A stretch of 20,612 nt of DNA from a virus, in IMG/VR virus record IMGVR_UViG_3300021519_000092, positions 1 to 20,612 of that record; one strand, 5' to 3'. The position numbers and the translations under genes are program-made. Under the pieces are notes generated by a model, which was not told the origin of the DNA, ran no database searches, and saw only the letters and a list, made by a program, of their open reading frames with translations. This document shows positions 10,239 through 20,612 of the stretch, one piece after another; the first letter of the stretch is position 1; each line of letters begins with the position of its first letter.

Positions 10239-13200
10239 CTAACCTTCTTCTTCGTTATACAAATCATACAACGCTGGGCGCTTGAGCTTCCTGGCGTTTC
10301 TAACAGCTAACTCTGGGTGCATCATTACCAAGGCGCGGTTTTTGATAGAAGAAATAGACGGCGGCTGCACCTTCTCATCAAGTGGAACACTCGGGCTTCC
10401 AAAATCAACAGCGGCCCTTTGATACTTGTCTACAAACTCTTTCATAAGTTTGTCGGCCTTCTGGCTATCGCCCTTTTCCCTAGCGGATATGCTATTCGCA
10501 AGTTTAGCTGACAGGTTTGTACTCAGCATATCTTCCGCTTCTTTGGTCCTGTACTTTAGACGCCGTGCAAAATAATCGCGCTCCTGAATAGAAGCGAATT
10601 TAGTTGGCTGGAAACCGGCCGCCTTAGAGGCGCGCTGTCCGATATTTGGTTCCGCAACCTTCATGTCTCCGCTTTGTGTGCGGTAGCCTTCAGCAGGGAG
10701 TTGTACTAGACCGCGTGCTATGTCAGACGGCCCTTTGGGGATGCCCATAGACGCCAAAGCCAGCGCCCCACCTATAGGCTGGTCTGAGTCGAACCTTTTC
10801 TTGGCTTCGATAACCTTGCCAACAGTCGCGGACAATATTGGGATGTTCATAATAGGGTTGGCGTCAGGCAGTATCTGGCCCTGGCCAATACGTTTAGACA
10901 CATCAATCCCAAGGAACCGAGCAGGGCCACGCGCTGCGGCTTCGGCCCACTCGGGACTCGCGCCGATCCCCTCAAGCATCTCGCGCATTTCGTACTCGAT
11001 CATCGGGTCAATGCCGGTCAGGTTCTTCATTATAAATTCGTAGGAATCAACAAGGTCGTCGGCAAACGGCAGACCGAGAAGGCCACCAAAGGCGGTGAGT
11101 GCCATTAGCATCATGGTCCCGGCGATCTTCCCCTCTGGCCCCGCGCTGGTCATGTTGTTCTTAAGGATACGCAGATAGTTCATGGGGTATTGCTTAAACT
11201 GAAAAGCCACACCACCAATGCCGCGCAAGGCCTCTGGCCGGTCGATCTTGCCACCAATGAATTGAGTTTCGTTCACAAAGAAGTCAGCGATATTGGCTGG
11301 CGTTAAACCAAACTGACTCTCTATGAGGCTAACCCGCGCATCGTTGGCGTACATATTCTTAAACTTGGCTATAGCACCTGGAGCTTGCGCCTCTCTGTAT
11401 GCAGCCAGCCATGCTGTGGCGCGGTTGACCTGTTCAGCCCCGTTAAACGCAGACGTTCCAACGTCGAATATGTTCCAGATAACCCTTTGTATTTTGGCAG
11501 ACTTATCGTTTCCGATTTTCTTAGATATTGATTGCCAGTTATCGGGCGACGTTCCGTGAAGGTCTTGCGTCACAGTAGGGTTAATGCGCCCTCTGTTGAA
11601 CGCATCCATAAACGCAACCTGCTCTTCAGGGCTGTTGAATTTAATTTTATTCGGGTCAAGGTTAATGCCTTTGCGTCTATCAAATGACAAGGCTCTTAAC
11701 ATATTCATAGACAGTTTGATCGTTCTGCCCGCCGCAGGTATCCCAGCCCAGCCAGCTATTTGTGTGGCTGTAATGGTCGGAGTTTGCGAAAGGTTCACAA
11801 GCGCCGAAGACGCGGACCCCCATAGGCTAGACCAGAACCCGTATTGCTTTAGCTGCCCAATCAGTTTCTCGTCGCTATCAAGATAATTGTTTACGCGCTC
11901 GGCATACTTTCTGATGTTCTCTGGAACATTCCTGCCGTCTTGTGTGCGCTCATAAGCATCTTCAGTTTGTTGACCGTACTCAACGCCAGACACAACACTG
12001 GCAGATGCGCGGTTGTAATCAATGATTGATTGCAAGAAGTCGGTGGAATACCCAGGAACATTCCTAGATTCTTTTGTAAACCCGGCACGTTGCGCCTTCT
12101 TAACTTGGTCAAGCAAGCTATCGCGCAATGCGTTCTTTACGTCAGTCTTGCCCAGCCCTGTGCCTTGAAGGGCTTCCAGAATGTTGTTCATCGCGCTGTT
12201 GCGGTCTTTCTTATCCGCAATGTTTGTCGCCGCGAGCAGCTTCTCGATTAGCGAGACATCGAGCTTCTCAATATTGTCTTTATTAATTGGGTCATTCTTT
12301 ACTTCGTAGAGAGGTTCCCCATTAGCATCAAGCTCAGGGAACTTCTTTTGAAGTTCTGCAAATTTACTTTTGATGACTTCGTTCTTCTTAACACTAGAGC
12401 CCGTGAGCCCACCCCACACGTTTTTAGTGTTGACCATCTCAAAGTACATAACTTCGCCGGTTAGTTTGTTTCTGACAGTGAATCCCTCATCACCCGCACG
12501 GCTAAACGGCACGTAATTCTCACGCGCTTTTGCGTCGGCGTAGATGGCGTTCACAAACTCTAGGTTCTTAGCGCGCTGGCTGTTGCCGTCTGCTTGGGCT
12601 TGAGCGATGGCGGCTTGGATTGCCCCGGCGTCCCACTCACCCTCATACCCCCACCGCTTACCAATGGCTTGGCCGTACTGGTTCCAGCGGGCCTTGAAGT
12701 AGTCCTTAATCCCCATGAAGATTTCAGTCTGCTCTTTATCCAGCATGAAGACTTCGCCGGGGCGACCAAGCACGCCGTTGTAGTTCTCCGGCAGGACAAC
12801 GGTGATGCGCCCGTTCCTGGGAGTAATGTTGGTATTCGTAAGGCGCGCAAACTCCATAACGGCCTCGATCTGTTTGCGAGGCTTGTATTCCAACTGAGTC
12901 ATGCGCTCGATTGGCTTTTCGCCTTCCTTAATAAGCGCGGTTTCTCTTTCACTCCTGGCTTGCAGAAGGCTCTGAAAATTAGCGATTACAGGAAAGCGGC
13001 GGGCGACACCCTGCATCATGGCGAACCACAGTACGGGGCGGGAGATTGTCTCAGACGCCAGCTTGGGCGATCCACCCGTTACCCTGTTGACGCTGTTAAC
13101 CGTATTGCTGACCTGCGCGGCGGTCTGCTCCGTGCCATCAGGGTTGAGTAATGGTTTAGCTTCTTGCCCTTTGGAGAGAGAGAACGAGCCGGAGATGTCA

Positions 13201-16200
13201 GACAGTTCAGAGAACAAATCAAACTGAGTTGGCTTGGACTTCTGTTCGGCCTTTGCTTCTTTGTAGTCAGGGAATATTTCACTGACATCAGCATTTAAGA
13301 AGCCTTCTGAAATTCTAAGAACTTCAGAGAGCGCGGTGTCTGACTTTGCACTTAACCCCAAGAACCTTCTGATTGATTCAATAAATTTAGAAAACAGATT
13401 GCCACCCTTATAGGGTATGCTTTCAAGAAAGCTCTGTGCTTTTGGATCGGTAAGCGCATAGGTTATAACTTCGTCGTTTGTAATCTCTTGACGGCTGTTT
13501 ATAAAATTATTTTTGTTTCCATAAATTGCTTTTTCAAAATCAGTAAGCGGCTCTCCTGAGTCAACTTTTTTATTAAAATACTTAATAATTCCATTTTTAA
13601 CATCAAATAAATCTTTACGAAGTCTTCCAAGATTAGTATCTGGACCGTAGTCTTTATAAACCGCTTGTCTAAACGCAGACAAAGTTGCTGCATGAATTAA
13701 TTCATGCAAAGTGGTCTTTTCGTCTGTGCCGAAATTATCTGGAGAAAGACCAACAGATTTTAAGTAAACATTAAATTTCTTATGTGGTTTTGACGGATCA
13801 GAATACACAAATCCTCTTACGCTTGTGTTTCTAATGCTTAACCATTCGGCTCTAGAAGCTGTAAAAGTTTCATTAGGTTTTATAATTTTAACACTGAACT
13901 CAACGCCAGCTTTAGAAAGCTGTTCTAGTTTTGCCAGAACACGCGAAGCTATAAGTCTGTAAGACGGATTATCAGATTTCTCCGCAATTACTTTTGCGAT
14001 TTCACTGACAGTTTTACCTTCAATCTGTTTTTCAAACTCTAAGGCTTTGCTGCGCTCTTCATCTTTCACAGTCTTTTCTTCTGACGACATAGATATGTCA
14101 GCAAATATCCTATCGGCTTCAGCGCGCTGCTCCTCAATAGTCTTCTCTTCGAGCTCTGGAGTCTGGATAGTCTCTACAAAACGCTCTTGTTTGGGAAGCG
14201 CCGCCTCTTGTGGTTCCGCCTGAATAGCAGCACGCTCGTCTGCCTCATCTCTTTCCAAAATCTGTTTCTCAGAAAGCGCATTGTCAGCGGCGCGCTGTTC
14301 TTCGGCTTCCTTTCTTAGACGTTGTGATTCAGACAGGACTCTCTGGGCTTCTCTCTGTTCCCATAATTCCTTACGTCTCTCTTTAAGCTGATAGATATTC
14401 AGCTTTTTGGTTTCTTCAATAGGAACACCAAAGGACGTATGTAAGTCTTCACGATGCTGAATAGTCTCAACATCTTCGCCCTTAAAACCGGCATTGCCGA
14501 AGATCGACTTTAACTCAGCGCGTCTATCGCGTTCTACCTGTCGCGGGTTAACGCCGCCATCTTCAGCGGCGTTAGGAAAGGTCTTCTTCGCATTAGACAG
14601 GGCGGTCTTAAACGCATCCATGTCTTCTTTAGTGTTCGCCTCCTCTGGCCCAATCTCTTTTATCGGCCCGAGGTAGCCAGCCTTTTCGGCGCGATTAACC
14701 GCCTCTCTGACTGAGATGCCATTGCCTCTAAGAAGTCCTTTGAAAGCGCCCGCGCCACCAACGTCTTCAACAAATCCAAGTCTAGGGTTAATCCCACCCT
14801 GATCTATCAAATAACCGTACAGGGACTTCACCCTAACGGCTTTAGGAAGATCGCCAACGGGGGTTAGCGGTTCGTACTTTAATGGAGCAACCGTAACCTG
14901 GGGAGCGCCCTCTCCAGTCTTAGCTTTTGTATCCATCAAGTCTGTTGGCGGCGGGGTGTACTCCATCGGAGGCGGGGCGGCAGCCTTACGAGCGGCTGCG
15001 CCTTCTTCTTCTGTGACTTCAACAGGCTTATAGCCGCGTGTCTGCTCAAGTCGGTTGGCCTCTTCTCGTTTTGAAGCGGCCAGTACCTTCAGATTATCAA
15101 CATACAACTGGTTTTCGGGCGTTATGTTTCTGCGCGCTGTTATCTTTAACGCTTCGTCTTCGTGTTCCTTTGCGGACTCTCTTAAAGCACGAACATTATC
15201 CAGCCCGGTAACATCAAGCATTGCCCCAGGCTCAACGGGCTTTAACTTTTTTCTCTCTAATCTAATTTCGGCAGTCCGCTCATCGGCCATCGACTGTACA
15301 TCAAACGGGGGCGGCTCCGCATTATCTTCAGGCGGAGCCTTCGTCAGTGGCGCGACATCCGTGTCAACTAAGTTGGGTAACAGGTCTTCAACACGGCTGG
15401 TATTGGGGCCTCCCCCAGCCGGAAGAGCCGGGTCGGTCTCATCATGCAGCGTGAATGTAGCAATAGGCACGCCATCAACATCCTTAACACTGTCAATGGT
15501 GGCGACCCTTACAACACCCGCATCGTCCTTAATGCCAATCGCGCTGCCCACCGGCCTGAAGCCAATCGTCGTGGGGTCAGCGATGTCCTTGCCGACGATG
15601 CTGCCCAAGGGCTCTGGGGGTTGTTCTTCTGTGGGTTGTTTCTGTTGGCCACCAAACGTAGCTTCAGTGCCAGCACCCAAGACGCCGCCAGCAAAGCCAC
15701 CCTTTAATGCAGAATCTATAACATCGTCCCAGTTGATTGCCTTATTTGACCCTCCGGCCTGGGCAGACGCTTGTTCAACGATTGTTTGAAGACCTTCAGT
15801 GCCGCCTTCAAGCAGGAATTGTTTAGCACCCTCTACGCCAAGTCTTTTAATAAGACTACCGCTTACATCTTTTGCGGCTTCGCCAAACATCTTCCCCAAG
15901 ATTGGTACATCAGCGACAACATCAAGAGCGCCAGCTATAGCGCCGCCGACTACCGCCGCTGCGGCACCTGTGCCGCCGCGCTTTCCGGTTTCATCTACTA
16001 TGTCGCCATATATTGATCCCATTTCCATACCGGCAGACGGGACATACGCACCAGCCGCAGAGCCGACAGCCACGCGCTTTGCAACCATTTCCGCTGCGGC
16101 TTTCTCAGCGGCATCTTTACCTAGTCCTTCACCTATTTTTTTAGCAACCATATCGGCTACTAAACTTTCGGCACCCTTGCGTGCCACGGTAGCGCCAACA

Positions 16201-16664
16201 CCACCGCTTACAAGCGACGGTATAAACATTGGTAAGTTTTCAAATATGGCATCAACCGCATATTTACCGGCGTCACCAAACCCGTGAATGTCTTTGTATG
16301 TCGGCACATCAGAAGCAAGCTCCTGAGCCCTAGCTTCTGTTTGCTTGTACTTTTCAAGCATGGATGTACCAAAGTCTTTGGCACCAACAACGTCAGCACC
16401 CAACGCGGCAAGACCGTAGCCTGTGGATTTTAACCCTTCTACCCCGCGCTCTAAGGACTTACTGATGCGCCCCTGGCCCGTGTCTTCTTCGGGCGCGGGC
16501 GGTGCGGCAGGAGCGGATTGTAAGTGAGCCAGTATTTCTTGGCTGGAATACCCAGCTTTCTTTGCGCCCTCAACATCAAATTTACGAGTTTCGGCAAGAT
16601 GACTAATGATTTCGTCATCATTATACCCAGCCGCTTTCGCGCCTTCTATGTCGAACGGAGGCAT
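10239..16664 (-). CDS. Giant virion/ejection protein of the large polyvalent type with HExxH metallopeptidase domain (2141 aa)
   Basis: Order of parts: two 20-residue N-terminal repeats (F4-L23 and F29-L48, core EGAKxAGY); Gly/Ala hydrophobic segments (about 133-160, 230-258, 320-338); a Pro-rich linker (about 340-600); a coiled coil (about 755-870); a zincin-like segment with H987-E-L-I-H991 and likely third ligand E1065; then a long alpha-helical C-terminal half with a hydrophobic stretch near 1848-1868. The C-terminal half recalls PLxRFG-type polyvalent proteins, but that name is tentative. It contains no cysteine. It occupies the place of T7 gp16 after two smaller virion proteins, so it is probably ejected with the DNA. 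The ribosome-binding site is weak. No transglycosylase motif was recognised. Confidence 0.8.
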   Translation of the reverse strand: MPPFDIEGAKAAGYNDDEIISHLAETRKFDVEGAKKAGYSSQEILAHLQSAPAAPPAPEEDTGQGRISKSLERGVEGLKSTGYGLAALGADVVGAKDFGTSMLEKYKQTEARAQELASDVPTYKDIHGFGDAGKYAVDAIFENLPMFIPSLVSGGVGATVARKGAESLVADMVAKKIGEGLGKDAAEKAAAEMVAKRVAVGSAAGAYVPSAGMEMGSIYGDIVDETGKRGGTGAAAAVVGGAIAGALDVVADVPILGKMFGEAAKDVSGSLIKRLGVEGAKQFLLEGGTEGLQTIVEQASAQAGGSNKAINWDDVIDSALKGGFAGGVLGAGTEATFGGQQKQPTEEQPPEPLGSIVGKDIADPTTIGFRPVGSAIGIKDDAGVVRVATIDSVKDVDGVPIATFTLHDETDPALPAGGGPNTSRVEDLLPNLVDTDVAPLTKAPPEDNAEPPPFDVQSMADERTAEIRLERKKLKPVEPGAMLDVTGLDNVRALRESAKEHEDEALKITARRNITPENQLYVDNLKVLAASKREEANRLEQTRGYKPVEVTEEEGAAARKAAAPPPMEYTPPPTDLMDTKAKTGEGAPQVTVAPLKYEPLTPVGDLPKAVRVKSLYGYLIDQGGINPRLGFVEDVGGAGAFKGLLRGNGISVREAVNRAEKAGYLGPIKEIGPEEANTKEDMDAFKTALSNAKKTFPNAAEDGGVNPRQVERDRRAELKSIFGNAGFKGEDVETIQHREDLHTSFGVPIEETKKLNIYQLKERRKELWEQREAQRVLSESQRLRKEAEEQRAADNALSEKQILERDEADERAAIQAEPQEAALPKQERFVETIQTPELEEKTIEEQRAEADRIFADISMSSEEKTVKDEERSKALEFEKQIEGKTVSEIAKVIAEKSDNPSYRLIASRVLAKLEQLSKAGVEFSVKIIKPNETFTASRAEWLSIRNTSVRGFVYSDPSKPHKKFNVYLKSVGLSPDNFGTDEKTTLHELIHAATLSAFRQAVYKDYGPDTNLGRLRKDLFDVKNGIIKYFNKKVDSGEPLTDFEKAIYGNKNNFINSRQEITNDEVITYALTDPKAQSFLESIPYKGGNLFSKFIESIRRFLGLSAKSDTALSEVLRISEGFLNADVSEIFPDYKEAKAEQKSKPTQFDLFSELSDISGSFSLSKGQEAKPLLNPDGTEQTAAQVSNTVNSVNRVTGGSPKLASETISRPVLWFAMMQGVARRFPVIANFQSLLQARSERETALIKEGEKPIERMTQLEYKPRKQIEAVMEFARLTNTNITPRNGRITVVLPENYNGVLGRPGEVFMLDKEQTEIFMGIKDYFKARWNQYGQAIGKRWGYEGEWDAGAIQAAIAQAQADGNSQRAKNLEFVNAIYADAKARENYVPFSRAGDEGFTVRNKLTGEVMYFEMVNTKNVWGGLTGSSVKKNEVIKSKFAELQKKFPELDANGEPLYEVKNDPINKDNIEKLDVSLIEKLLAATNIADKKDRNSAMNNILEALQGTGLGKTDVKNALRDSLLDQVKKAQRAGFTKESRNVPGYSTDFLQSIIDYNRASASVVSGVEYGQQTEDAYERTQDGRNVPENIRKYAERVNNYLDSDEKLIGQLKQYGFWSSLWGSASSALVNLSQTPTITATQIAGWAGIPAAGRTIKLSMNMLRALSFDRRKGINLDPNKIKFNSPEEQVAFMDAFNRGRINPTVTQDLHGTSPDNWQSISKKIGNDKSAKIQRVIWNIFDVGTSAFNGAEQVNRATAWLAAYREAQAPGAIAKFKNMYANDARVSLIESQFGLTPANIADFFVNETQFIGGKIDRPEALRGIGGVAFQFKQYPMNYLRILKNNMTSAGPEGKIAGTMMLMALTAFGGLLGLPFADDLVDSYEFIMKNLTGIDPMIEYEMREMLEGIGASPEWAEAAARGPARFLGIDVSKRIGQGQILPDANPIMNIPILSATVGKVIEAKKRFDSDQPIGGALALASMGIPKGPSDIARGLVQLPAEGYRTQSGDMKVAEPNIGQRASKAAGFQPTKFASIQERDYFARRLKYRTKEAEDMLSTNLSAKLANSISAREKGDSQKADKLMKEFVDKYQRAAVDFGSPSVPLDEKVQPPSISSIKNRALVMMHPELAVRNARKLKRPALYDLYNEEEG

Positions 16665-16667
16665 TTT

Positions 16668-18497
16668 TTATTGACCAAAACTATTTAAAGGCGGGCGCGC
16701 ATTAGAGCCGCCCCCAGCCAGTGGGGGCGCAGCGCCGCGCTCTTGAGTTGAAAGGTTTGTATTAAGTATAGAATACGCCCTATTGTATGCGTCGTTGTAT
16801 GCTTGGTCCTTGAGCTTTTTTAATGCTTCAGGTTTTAAACTCATATTTTTTAAATCTGCATCAACCGCCTTTACAGCTTCATCAGCTTGCTTCAGAGCGA
16901 TGGCTTTATTTAAGTCATCATTTTTTTCGACTCCAGATGCTACACGCGCAGCTTCTTGGGGAGCTAACCCCCCTTTATCTACAAGCAAGTTGTATTTGTA
17001 TTCAGCTTCTGTGGCTCTATCAGGTTTGGAATTTTTAACAGCTTCGCTTTTGTAGTAATTAATTACTGCTTGAGCTTTTTGATATTCTAAACTTCCAGGT
17101 ATTTGCGCGCTTTCATATTCTCTCTTCTTCAAATCAGCATTAGCTTGTTCAACCTTTAAGCCGCCCTGAGAAATATCCAACTGGCGATTACGCGCATCGT
17201 TGTTCAAGTCCTCACTACGCTGAGATTGCAACAACGTAGCTTGCTTCATATTTCTTTCAGCGCGTGCGGCTTTAGCTTCTTGCAGTTGTTTAACGCCCAA
17301 CATTCCACCTTGGCCGATTGAGCCAAGGAACTTGGCCCCTGGCTGCGAAGCAGCCGCCATCGTGCCCAAGCTGGCTTGAAGAAGCGCCATGTATTTGTCC
17401 TGCGACGACAACGGCTGGTCATCACTTAGCAGCTTATCCATGCGCTCTTTGTAAGCATCGGACTCTGATTGCTTACGTGCGTTCATAGCTTCCGCCGCCG
17501 CGTCTGGCTTGCCCGGTTCAACGGCTGCGGGCGGCGGAGCGGTTAAGGCTTGGGATGCGCGCTCTGCGGCCTTAGCGCGAGGGGCAGCAATGGCGGCGTC
17601 GGGCGCGGCGATTTCGGCTGCGTTTTCATTTATAGGAAACTCTTGAAAAGTCGGCTTGAAGTCTTTTAAGGATTCAAGCTGGTATCTTTCTTCTCCAGGT
17701 GCAGAATCACCCATCCGTTTTTTTCTAAGTTCTTCTGCAACAAAATCAGGGTCTTGGGTTAATTCAGAACCTGTAGAGTAATCAATAGCTTTGCGTGCAT
17801 ATGGTTCAGCTTTTTCATAAAGATAACCTACGCTTTTATTGATAGCGGAACCCAACCCCCCGAAATAATTTTCGGGGGATATGTCTGGAATTTTTGAAAA
17901 CATATCTTTTATAAGTTGAGGATTATTTCTTCCCTCACCCTCAGTGTAAAATTTCTCAGTAGCTTCTTCCTGCGTCATCTCAGGGGGGACAAGCCCTCTC
18001 AATCTTTCAGACAAAATATCTGTTCTGGGATAACCCCTACCACCGAGAAAAGAATAATCTCCCCTATTCGCACTTCTGGCGTTTCTAATAGTTCTCTCTA
18101 AATAACTCTCGCCCCCCTCCGCATACCCCTTCACCGCCCCGCCGCGCGCCATAGCCGCTACACGGCTGGCATCAGCCGCGCCCGACATCAGGGCTTCCGT
18201 GGACGGGTTCTGCGGCGCTTCCGGCGCGGCCTGACGCTGCGGGATTTCGGGCTGCTCTTCCGGCCCTTGGCCCAGCATTTCCTGGCGCACAGCGGCCATA
18301 AAGCCTGGGTCCATTTGGCTCACGCCCGTGCTGTCGCCGGTCATCTGCGGCGGTTGCGCGGGAGCGTTAGCCCCGCCCCTCATAGTGTTCAACGCCGACA
18401 TCGCGGCCATGCGCTGCTGCGGTGTTGCACGCGGATCGGTCATCATCGCCATCAGCATGTCGGGAGACTGCTGCTGTTGCATTGGATTGATCGCCAT
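16668..18497 (-). CDS. Virion-associated (internal/ejection-type) protein, 609 aa
   Basis: It starts at 18497, overlapping the previous stop by one base (TAATG), with GAGGG upstream. The N-terminus is Met/Gln/Pro-rich (about 1-115) and includes the motif GGAVKGYAEGG at 119-129. A more globular middle follows (about 130-290), then an Ala/Pro linker (about 295-345). A long helical region follows (about 350-570: YMALLQASLGTMAAASQPG, KQLQEAKAARAERNMKQ, DLKKREYESAQIPG), probably coiled coil, and the tail is Gly/Pro-rich. It has no cysteine or tryptophan. Its position between a Gln/Ala/Gly-rich protein and the giant protein parallels T7 gp15. No enzyme motif is seen. GC content varies sharply along the gene. 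Confidence 0.65.
   Translation of the reverse strand: MAINPMQQQQSPDMLMAMMTDPRATPQQRMAAMSALNTMRGGANAPAQPPQMTGDSTGVSQMDPGFMAAVRQEMLGQGPEEQPEIPQRQAAPEAPQNPSTEALMSGAADASRVAAMARGGAVKGYAEGGESYLERTIRNARSANRGDYSFLGGRGYPRTDILSERLRGLVPPEMTQEEATEKFYTEGEGRNNPQLIKDMFSKIPDISPENYFGGLGSAINKSVGYLYEKAEPYARKAIDYSTGSELTQDPDFVAEELRKKRMGDSAPGEERYQLESLKDFKPTFQEFPINENAAEIAAPDAAIAAPRAKAAERASQALTAPPPAAVEPGKPDAAAEAMNARKQSESDAYKERMDKLLSDDQPLSSQDKYMALLQASLGTMAAASQPGAKFLGSIGQGGMLGVKQLQEAKAARAERNMKQATLLQSQRSEDLNNDARNRQLDISQGGLKVEQANADLKKREYESAQIPGSLEYQKAQAVINYYKSEAVKNSKPDRATEAEYKYNLLVDKGGLAPQEAARVASGVEKNDDLNKAIALKQADEAVKAVDADLKNMSLKPEALKKLKDQAYNDAYNRAYSILNTNLSTQERGAAPPLAGGGSNARPPLNSFGQ
16709..16729. repeat. GC-rich hairpin near the end of the 609-aa gene
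   Basis: CGCCCCCA (16709-16716), loop GCCAG, TGGGGGCG (16722-16729) form a perfect 8-bp stem. It lies about 45 bases before the giant gene's start on the transcribed strand. There is no following T-run in the leftward direction, so it is not a simple terminator. It might slow the ribosome or protect mRNA upstream of the weakly initiated giant gene. It also encodes Pro-Leu-Ala-Gly-Gly, so it may be incidental. Confidence 0.45.
17857..17878. repeat. Perfect 9-bp inverted repeat inside the 609-aa gene
   Basis: CCCCCGAAA (17857-17865), loop TAAT, TTTCGGGGG (17870-17878). It sits inside codons for PENYFGGLG of the leftward gene. No U-run follows on the transcribed strand, so termination is unlikely. 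It is symmetric and could be a protein-binding or structural element, or chance in a coding sequence. Confidence 0.4.
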
Positions 18498-20134
18498 TAT
18501 GAAGCCCTCGCAAACATTCCAAGTCCACGCTTCGGCAGCTTGCCGTAGCTAGACTTCTTCAGCGAACCCTTCTTGATAGCGCCGCCTTTGGCTTTCACAA
18601 GGTTGGCTCCGGCGATAATCGTTCCAGCCGTACCAGCTACCTTACCGGCAGTGCTTCCACCAGGGACAGATGTGCTGGATGTGCTAGTTGTCCCGCCTGG
18701 GGGCGCATTGCCTACGATACTCATGCCTGTTTTTATATTTTCAAACGGTGCGGCGTTTTCTACCACAGCCTGTCCTCTGTTGGCGTCAATGACACGCTGG
18801 TCCCGAGCTTCCGTACCTTCACCAACCGCCATCAATGCGCCAGAGTCCTTTAAGGTCATACTTTGGGCGTCTTTACCCAGACCAATATTAGCTGCACCAG
18901 CCCCAAGCTGATTGGCGGCATTGGCTGTCATCAAGCTTCCAAGTCCAGCGGCAACACCGGCCTCACCTTGACCAGCCGCCAGTATACGCGACAAGTCGGC
19001 TTGGCTGGCCTGGATATTGGCCTGACCGATTGAGGACAGTCCCTGTCCAGCCGCAAGCTGACGGGCCGCGTCCGACCCGGCTAGACCGGCATATGTAGAC
19101 CCAAGGCCAGCATACGAAGTGCCAAGGTTCCCAAGTCCAGCGCCCGCGCTTTGTAGAAGCTGCTGCTGCTGGGTGCCAAGGCTACCTGCCGTAGCGCCCA
19201 ACTGGCCGTAGCGCGACAGGTCAGCCGTTGAAGCGGCAAGCCCTTGGCCATAACCGCTCTGAAGCGCCTGGGCTTGCTGACCCAGGATTGACTCCTGGGT
19301 ATCCCGCGCTGCGCGACCGATTAGATCGCGCTGGCGGGTTGAACCGTAGCCACCGGCCTTGATGAAGTCGCTGCTGATCTGCGGAAGGATATTCTCAGAC
19401 AGGTTCCGCGCCCCAAGCTGGGCAATGCGGTTGGTAACCTGCTCATTGTAAGGGTTCATGTACTGCCCGACATTCTGAGCAGAAGACTGGCCAGCGGCTT
19501 GCAGATACGGAGAAGCTGAAGACAAACCCAAGGCGTCCGTGGACTGACCGTAGAGATTACCAGCTTGGCCATACTGCCCTTGCGCTTGTTGGGCATACGG
19601 GCTGAACATACCAGCGGTGTCGGTGTTGGCCGCTTGCTCAAACATGCCTGTAGCGGCGTTAAACTGCCCCTGACCGGCTAGACCGGACTTACCTGCGGCG
19701 GCTTGGTTGTAGTATTGAGATGCCTGATTATAAGTCGGCGCACCCGCGCCATAAATGTCCATACCGGAAGCATTGTTAATATTAGCGCCACCGCGCACCA
19801 ACCCAAATTGACCAGCCCCTTGGCCAGCACGCACTTGAGCGTTGGCCGCTTCAATATCAGCGTTTGTGCCAGCTACAAGGGGTTCGCCGGTTCTTTCATA
19901 ACCACCTAATTCGTAAGTTGGATTACCACTTGCGTCTAATACAGGTTTGCCGTCCTTGTCGTATATTGGTGCATTTTTATTTTGTAGTGTTGCATTCCAC
20001 TTAGACCCGTAAGGGTTATAAGGCGCACGGTTCATTAACTTCATAAGATCAGGGAACGCCTGATTTCTAACGGCTTGCGTAGCCTCATCGGGTATGATCG
20101 TTTGTGATGTATAAGTAGTGTTATTGTCGGCCAT
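18497..20134 (-). CDS. Ala/Gly/Gln/Ser-rich virion-associated protein, 545 aa
   Basis: It starts at 20134 after AGGAG at 20140-20144. After a polar N-terminus (about 1-110) comes an extended low-complexity region with repeated Tyr-Gly-Gln and Leu-Gly units (YGQAGNLYGQS, LGTSYAGLGSTYAGLAG, GQGLSSIGQ). It contains a more conserved-looking block about 220-290 (YMNPYNEQVTNRI, NILPQISSDFIKAGGYGSTRQ, RDTQESILGQQAQAL). That block is typical of internal or tail-tip proteins next to podovirus ejection proteins. The C-terminus has GGAIKKG (517-523) and ends KRGLGMFARAS. There are no cysteines. It may play the T7 gp14-like role of a pore-forming ejected protein, but this is inferred from position and composition. 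Confidence 0.65.
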   Translation of the reverse strand: MADNNTTYTSQTIIPDEATQAVRNQAFPDLMKLMNRAPYNPYGSKWNATLQNKNAPIYDKDGKPVLDASGNPTYELGGYERTGEPLVAGTNADIEAANAQVRAGQGAGQFGLVRGGANINNASGMDIYGAGAPTYNQASQYYNQAAAGKSGLAGQGQFNAATGMFEQAANTDTAGMFSPYAQQAQGQYGQAGNLYGQSTDALGLSSASPYLQAAGQSSAQNVGQYMNPYNEQVTNRIAQLGARNLSENILPQISSDFIKAGGYGSTRQRDLIGRAARDTQESILGQQAQALQSGYGQGLAASTADLSRYGQLGATAGSLGTQQQQLLQSAGAGLGNLGTSYAGLGSTYAGLAGSDAARQLAAGQGLSSIGQANIQASQADLSRILAAGQGEAGVAAGLGSLMTANAANQLGAGAANIGLGKDAQSMTLKDSGALMAVGEGTEARDQRVIDANRGQAVVENAAPFENIKTGMSIVGNAPPGGTTSTSSTSVPGGSTAGKVAGTAGTIIAGANLVKAKGGAIKKGSLKKSSYGKLPKRGLGMFARAS

Positions 20135-20143
20135 TTCTATCTC

Positions 20144-20581
20144 CTACGCCCGTGCGCTATTTAACAAAGAGCCAAGGCCCTTTTGTTTAGGCGAGGCTTT
20201 GCGGGGATTCTTGCGACCCGCACTGCTGCGGATTTTGTGTTTGATTTCTTCAAGCCGCTTCTGGCCGGTGTCGTTGTCGCCGTTGCCGAGGTCTGAGACG
20301 GTAGCGGCGTCGATCACATGTTCGCCATTTGAAAGCAGCGCCGGGATGTCGTCGCTCTTGCCGTCGCCGGGGCCAGCAATTCTGCCGCCGGTACGGGCGT
20401 TCAGATAGCCAAACTGCGCGGCAGACATAAGCTGCGGCATGGCGGCAGACTGAGGCAGACCCATGCCAACCGGAGCAACGTCGCCACCATCGGCGTACGT
20501 TTGTTGATTAAGGCCATCCATACTTTGGTTATAAACATCCATAGGTGTAGATGCAGGGTTATTGGTTATAGTAGGGTTCAT
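20144..20581 (-). CDS. Virion-associated protein with GPGDGxSDDIPALLSxGEHVI motif (at least 145 aa, 5' end may lie outside the window)
   Basis: Residues 70-90 carry the phage motif G-P-G-D-G-x-S-D-D-I-P-A-L-L-S-N-G-E-H-V-I, followed by LGNGDNDTG. This motif is common in small phage structural proteins of unknown role. Two Gly-Gly elements (ADGGDVAP 30-37, TGGRIAG 64-70) precede it. The C-terminus is basic and ends KQKGLGSLLNSARA, like the next protein. The ATG at 20581 has no good ribosome-binding site, and the frame stays open to the window edge (codons read SSFLRPAYRA), so this may be the 3' part of a longer gene. It has no cysteine. Function unknown. Confidence 0.6.
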   Translation of the reverse strand: MNPTITNNPASTPMDVYNQSMDGLNQQTYADGGDVAPVGMGLPQSAAMPQLMSAAQFGYLNARTGGRIAGPGDGKSDDIPALLSNGEHVIDAATVSDLGNGDNDTGQKRLEEIKHKIRSSAGRKNPRKASPKQKGLGSLLNSARA

Positions 20582-20612
20582 TGCTCTATATGCAGGTCTT
20601 AAAAAAGAAGAC

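Follow-up and report, generated by a model that had tools for sequence, protein, structure and literature searches.

What do short Gly-Gly elements and basic C-termini do on neighbouring, otherwise dissimilar proteins of one virus? A sequence-only reading of this locus had pointed to GGx[V/I] elements in three consecutive proteins, two of which also end in a basic stretch with GLG and ARA, and had suggested a common partner, scaffold, protease site or packaging tag. The window, by which we mean the whole stretch of DNA that was analysed, is a complete virus record of 20,612 bases. Read leftwards from its right end, the minus strand encodes P_A (cut by the window end), P_B (545 aa), P_C (609 aa), a 2141-aa protein at the P_D position and a lysozyme (Table 1), and the left part of the window carries primase/polymerase, RusA, Sak4-like, exonuclease and helicase genes. 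All genes were called simply as ORFs; those of P_B and P_C are whole, and the P_C start codon overlaps the P_B stop. The order P_A-P_B-P_C-P_D is also present in the relatives G001-G004. A scan of genome contigs returned six relatives, all of them MAG contigs without a clear host. In G004, the terminase, portal and major head genes lie on the cassette's own contig, with a GroES-like co-chaperonin gene (L054 6280-6759; phrog_3188, E 1.6e-5) between the portal and major head genes.

Table 1. Positions of the features discussed, on the window of 20,612 bases.
Feature	Position	Strand	Basis
P_A, C-terminal part only, cut by window end	20144..20611	-	open frame, longer homologues
YADGGDV element of P_A	20477..20497	-	motif scans; YADGG-type also in relatives
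Tape-measure-type module of P_A, GGRIAGPGDGKSDDIPALLSNGEHVIDAATVSDLGNG...KIR	20228..20398	-	PHROG, tblastn, PDB chains, alignment
Basic C-terminal tail of P_A, KQKGLGSLLNSARA	20147..20188	-	close-clade conservation, charge rank
P_B, 545 aa, probable DNA ejection protein	18497..20134	-	phrog_4287 match, alignment
P_B 31-aa tail, AKGGAIKKGSLKKSSYGKLPKRGLGMFARAS	18500..18592	-	identity and codon differences
P_C, 609 aa	16668..18497	-	ORF; homologues L006, L008, L013-L018 and others
MARGGAVKGYAEGG element, end of conserved P_C leader (residues 1-130)	18111..18152	-	leader conservation
P_D position: 2141-aa PLxRFG protein without tag	10239..16664	-	NF032893; motif absent

Several features suggest what kind of proteins these are. 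P_D is transglycosylase-like in G001 and G002 by PHROG, with a Pfam SLT match in G002 (E 3.5e-10), and the P_B homologue in L040 matches the PHROG DNA ejection family phrog_4287 at E 2e-7 (window P_B itself, E 0.007). On the basis of these matches and of gene order, we read P_A-P_D as a podovirus-type ejection cassette, whose proteins are probably carried inside the virion. The cassette shares with the podovirus ejection proteins (T7 gp14-16, P22, epsilon15; PHROG 4287) a gene order after the tail genes, along with the transglycosylase-type P_D and the P_B match just described, whereas AxGGx[VI] is missing from the final 40 residues of the T7 and epsilon15 ejection proteins. In the H66 record, gp60 (PLxRFG) is marked as virion-verified and gp59 carries no such mark. 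For those tagged proteins whose function is unknown, Pfam gave no match.

The 145-aa ORF at the right end had been taken for a complete protein, and this proved incorrect. Its frame of 155 codons is open up to the window end, no ribosome site is evident for the ATG at 20581, and relatives reach about 250 or more residues further N-terminal. The missing part is supplied by L012, a near-identical phage (100% over 34 residues) that matches residues 1-34 of the 145-aa ORF at position 261 of its own open ORF, which brings P_A to about 391 aa. Close relatives have about 390-440 aa counted from an MTMGL start, and the open frames of more distant relatives are mostly 537-973 aa long; the homologue gp066c of Caulobacter phage KcrB has 580 aa. 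AlphaFold models P_A, at low confidence (pLDDT 53), as two short strands followed by two helices.

GGRIAG, which had been listed as an element of its own, is not free-standing, because it opens the module GGxIxGPGxGxSDxIPAxLSxGExV that is common in tail tape measure proteins. The P_A module matches PHROG tape measure profiles at E 1e-8, and these families are also matched by 23 of the 24 sequences in the alignment. A tblastn search with the module returned 167 phage records, and relatives with the aligned module are encoded in 461 viral stretches, 80 of which were kept. In tape measure proteins the module begins with the same element, for example FADGGLVRGPGTGRSD in Flyfo and FATGGRIKGPGTGTSD in Gregale. 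It is also present in the PDB sequences of Douge gp16 and JBD30 gp46 (matching chains 8zdo, E 1e-14, and 8rk3, E 0.0014), for which the excerpted sources describe a structure built for the last 42 and 33 residues only. In an excerpt of their report, the JBD30 authors place a predicted hook at 1022-1066, by which the protein could be anchored in the baseplate; the module match, at 1011-1052 of the PDB sequence, overlaps this hook. The hook fold would consist of a short beta hairpin and two helices, and the P_A model is too poor to confirm it. P_A thus resembles the tape measure proteins of JBD30, Douge and many siphophages in module sequence, but here the module makes up the C-terminal part of P_A, which belongs to an ejection cassette. 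The module is a known one, though without a name, and neither its strings nor any described tag or motif of this kind was found in the open-licence papers searched. A tape-measure-type module also occurs in Pelagibacter phage HTVC104P (L159 6144-7445), in the protein encoded directly after the portal. This placement links the module to the protein with several Gly-Gly copies that stands there in the window's relatives.

All quoted Gly-Gly strings are present in the window where they had been placed. However, as GGx[VI] the pattern has shuffle probabilities of 0.008, 0.58 and 0.18 in the three window proteins, so that only the first is unusual. The element is better written as [Y/F/M/K]AxGGx[V/I]. 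With A.GG.[VI] the probabilities are 0.016, 0.13 and 0.030 (product 6e-5, for a motif picked after looking). Judged by sequence, the case for a motif is weak from the window alone and strong with relatives. In the cassette of G001-G004, with genes taken by position, [YFMK]A.GG.[VI] occurs 14 times against 0.21 expected from shuffles, and A.GG.[VI] 16 times against 1.76; the rest of these genomes gave 11 against 0.74 and 17 against 6.59, respectively. Ten of those 11 matches fall in two further tagged families, one whose gene directly follows that of the portal and another whose gene comes after the lysis genes. The protein directly after the portal gene is basic and has several motif copies. 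When all six tagged families (22 genes) are pooled, A.GG.[VI] occurs 28 times against 1.85, in families picked partly from their own matches, and the 195 other genes have 5 against 6.3. The corrected form of the motif therefore recurs in relatives on unrelated proteins, as had been proposed, and the shuffle comparison upholds it there.

Comparison motifs support the specificity of this pattern. Motifs such as A.AA.[VI], A.SS.[VI] or [YFM]A.AG.[VI] gave 0.5-1.6 fold; those without Gly-Gly stayed at 0.6-1.6 fold, and those that keep Gly-Gly and change a flanking residue gave 0.5-2.0 fold in tagged genes, L.GG.[VI] being the highest. In T7, A.GG.[VI] occurs 4 times where shuffles predict 0.72, and three of the four lie outside the ejection genes, which indicates that shuffles understate the background; with T7, epsilon15, HMO-2011 and HTVC010P taken together the count is 9 against 2.9, so that exceeding the shuffles two- to threefold is nothing unusual.

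The motif extends to more distant loci. In a diverse set of loci retrieved through the module, [YFM]A.GG.[VI] occurs 32 times against 1.3 when the module gene is taken together with the five that follow it, and 6 times against 0.7 elsewhere. A related scan took 69 of the 80 kept loci as its diverse set; two loci, L095 and L070, had no callable module gene. The diverse set is more independent than the window and close relatives on which the motif was refined, yet it shares the module, and its enrichment count also includes close-clade loci. Position is biased as well: of 40 matches in the five genes that follow the module gene, 18 fall within 35 residues of the C-terminus (1.92 expected), as compared with 1 of 30 matches within the module gene. 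Counting against a tag, motif scans found none in the giant P_D proteins of the window and of L071.

This position at protein ends could have another origin. A maturation protease might cut after Gly-Gly, removing the C-terminal tails and chopping the multi-copy portal-adjacent protein in the way that prohead proteases act on scaffolds. The motif does occur at protein ends and at the L040 domain junction, and the multi-copy basic protein stands in the scaffold position; moreover, excerpted sources report an experimental cut after R1127 in the T5 tape measure protein and a cut proposed by the JBD30 authors at 1066, just behind the module. However, across nine records, some of them fragments, the protease search gave 0 of 9 for S78, 0 of 9 for C39 (whose controls rang in 8 of 14) and 0 of 9 over the cut-off for S49, the control of the C48 search being silent, and the P_B tail that follows Gly-Gly is itself strongly conserved. 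The zincin of the window's giant protein was rejected as a processing enzyme, since its HExxH motif is absent from P_D of G001-G004, where the Gly-Gly motifs are kept. We consider cleavage at the motif improbable.

Both C-termini that had drawn attention read as quoted: that of P_A in full, and that of P_B with KRGLGMFARAS at its end. As a specific shared tail, GLG...ARA was discarded, because a local alignment of the last 25 residues of P_A and P_B does not exceed chance in the window (shuffle p=0.22); across four relatives the same alignment gave p values of 0.21, 0.13, 0.18 and 0.03, and for L072 it gave 0.04. The basic character of the ends did hold, with P_B at charge rank 1-2 and P_A at 2-4 among 30-65 genes. 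For P_A, P_B, P_D and the post-portal protein, in that order, the C-terminal charge ranks are 4, 2, 7 and 4 of 62; 4, 2, 9 and 1 of 65; 2, 1, 4 and 2 of 60; and, in G004, 2, 1, 4 and 3 of 30. The end of P_C is not basic (ranks 8-36). Of 14 tailed virion genes (P_A, P_B, P_D and the post-lysis proteins of G001-G004), 12 have a looser pattern, [KR][GA][LM][GSR], within their last 25 residues, as against 0 of 232 other genes; this result is suggestive only, since the pattern was written after seeing the tails and the 14 genes are orthologues of four families. The basic P_A tail is kept within the close clade, and tails in distant phages differ from the [KR][GA][LM][GSR] type.

Basic ends of this kind would be expected if the tails contact DNA or neutralise charge, with glycine turns and basic helices binding packaged DNA or membrane and no specific partner. 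In this respect, the C-termini of P_A, P_B, P_D and the post-portal protein are among the most basic of their genomes, and a review, known from an excerpt, states that T7 requires the basic residues at the gp16 C-terminus in order to be infective. Charge leaves unexplained, however, the AxGGx[V/I] spacing and the motif in P_C and inside P_A, and distant phages have non-basic C-terminal versions, such as AMAQGGLVAAGG. We regard charge by itself as an unlikely explanation.

The P_B tail has an identity of 0.91 as compared with 0.45 in the preceding 60 residues, and its codon differences over 36 pairs are 330 synonymous versus 102 nonsynonymous. Judging from these codons, the P_B tail is under purifying selection; speaking against the tag, it is absent in 10 of 11 distant homologue rows of the alignment, which contained the window protein and 18 of the 24 stretches listed. 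The Caulobacter phages KcrB and RW have homologues of both P_A and P_B, and the KcrB P_B is without the tail. A PDB search with P_B gave no match, and its AlphaFold model is as poor as that of P_A (pTM 0.21 and 0.23, respectively); at this low confidence, both tails are modelled as coil plus a short terminal helix.

Tails also occur on exchanged bodies. Two post-lysis proteins, of 145 aa and 315 aa, have a common 17-aa C-terminal tail (94%) on bodies without significant similarity. Of its 17 codons, 8 are identical, 8 carry synonymous changes and 1 a nonsynonymous change; the flanks of the tail are unrelated (11 of 60 bases identical upstream and 27 of 120 downstream). Similarly, a tail of about 29 aa is common to three P_D bodies (G004, G002/G003 and L066) that have no blastp match to each other at E 0.01. 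Among 53 representatives with a C-terminal motif, 7 of them on the opposite strand and probably spurious, tails match in 13 pairs without homologous bodies, several of which are the same three P_D bodies counted repeatedly, and in 75 pairs with homologous bodies. In P_C it is the leader, residues 1-130 and ending in the motif, that is kept, and the remainder has diverged or has no match in several relatives. Since tails are kept on bodies without detectable homology, the motif behaves like an exchangeable tag.

These exchanges raise the possibility that the motif is a residue of recombination, with gene ends persisting because mosaic exchange occurs just upstream and the motif having no function of its own. 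For P_D, the DNA past the stop codon is kept as well (74-150 of 150 bases, e.g. 131 of 150) and few codon changes in the tail are synonymous, so that this tail may sit on the conserved side of a recombination junction; P_C bodies, too, have been exchanged behind a conserved leader. On the other hand, the 17-aa tail lies between unrelated DNA on both sides with its changes mostly synonymous, the P_B tail shows the codon pattern given above, and the same motif occurs in unrelated phages. We give a purely recombinational origin little credence.

The motif thus looks like a handling tag rather than chance, with a putative function. A docking or loading tag best fits a peptide that is common to unrelated proteins of the same assembly and can be exchanged between them, and the pattern, found in the cassette and beyond, agrees with the packaging tag or common partner that had been suggested. 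We tentatively favour the reading of [Y/F/M/K]AxGGx[V/I] as an exchangeable docking or loading tag for injected virion proteins of the ejection cassette; the sequences show enrichment, C-terminal bias, conservation and a single body exchange between unrelated flanks, and virion packaging, docking, a partner and an anchoring role are what we infer from them. The tag, behind which there is often a short C-terminal tail of basic or amphipathic character, would help proteins of unrelated fold to load at a common site inside the procapsid, from which they would then leave with the DNA. Candidate docks are the portal and the multi-copy basic protein encoded next to it; an excerpted P22 paper places ejection protein sites at the barrel and crown of the portal. 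The P_A copy lies within the larger tape-measure module, which may anchor P_A in the tail or portal conduit.

The nearest known counterpart is the T4 capsid targeting sequence (CTS), a short peptide common to otherwise divergent internal, injected proteins, for which an excerpt of PMC9026906 reports that 10 residues from the start of IPIII are enough to bring about incorporation. As in T4, a short sequence is common here to non-homologous proteins, which are presumably internal. The CTS is N-terminal, about 10 residues long, of other sequence and removed by gp21, whereas the motif described here is mostly C-terminal, or internal in P_A and P_C, and known from sequence. How cargo is chosen to enter the head and leave with the DNA in podovirus-type phages is largely open outside T4, and an exchangeable, sequence-defined tag, if true, would predict cargo from sequence alone and mark unknown genes of metagenomic phages as encoding injected proteins. 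A broader and rather doubtful version is that the motif is a general address label for injected proteins in a wide range of tailed phages, C-terminal or internal. Such a label would either stem from the first element of the tape-measure module or be recognised in the same way as that element. New cargo could then join the ejection machinery by acquiring the tag.

The untagged 2141-aa P_D of the window belongs to NCBIfam NF032893 (E 2e-41; 142 bits versus a curated cut-off of 100) and resembles the PLxRFG and polyvalent proteins by this profile and by a zincin-type HELIH motif at residue 987 (13692-13706), differing from the other cassette proteins here in that it has no tag. The L071 giant has HEAVH. 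The N-terminus of the 2141-aa protein (16514-16664) contains a stretch of the type FD[IV]EGAK.AGY...EI..HL twice. In L040 (6866-9127; G005), P_B runs on into a longer C-terminal part, and GYAEGGTVKKK and FADGGDVDM lie where the two are fused; in the P_B homologue of phage ctpbd312 (L044 6827-8065) a long cysteine-rich run at the end is followed by ASGGSVDAK and GGLPVKKG. The ctpbd312 homologue is labelled 'coronavirus S2 glycoprotein', which is probably a misannotation.
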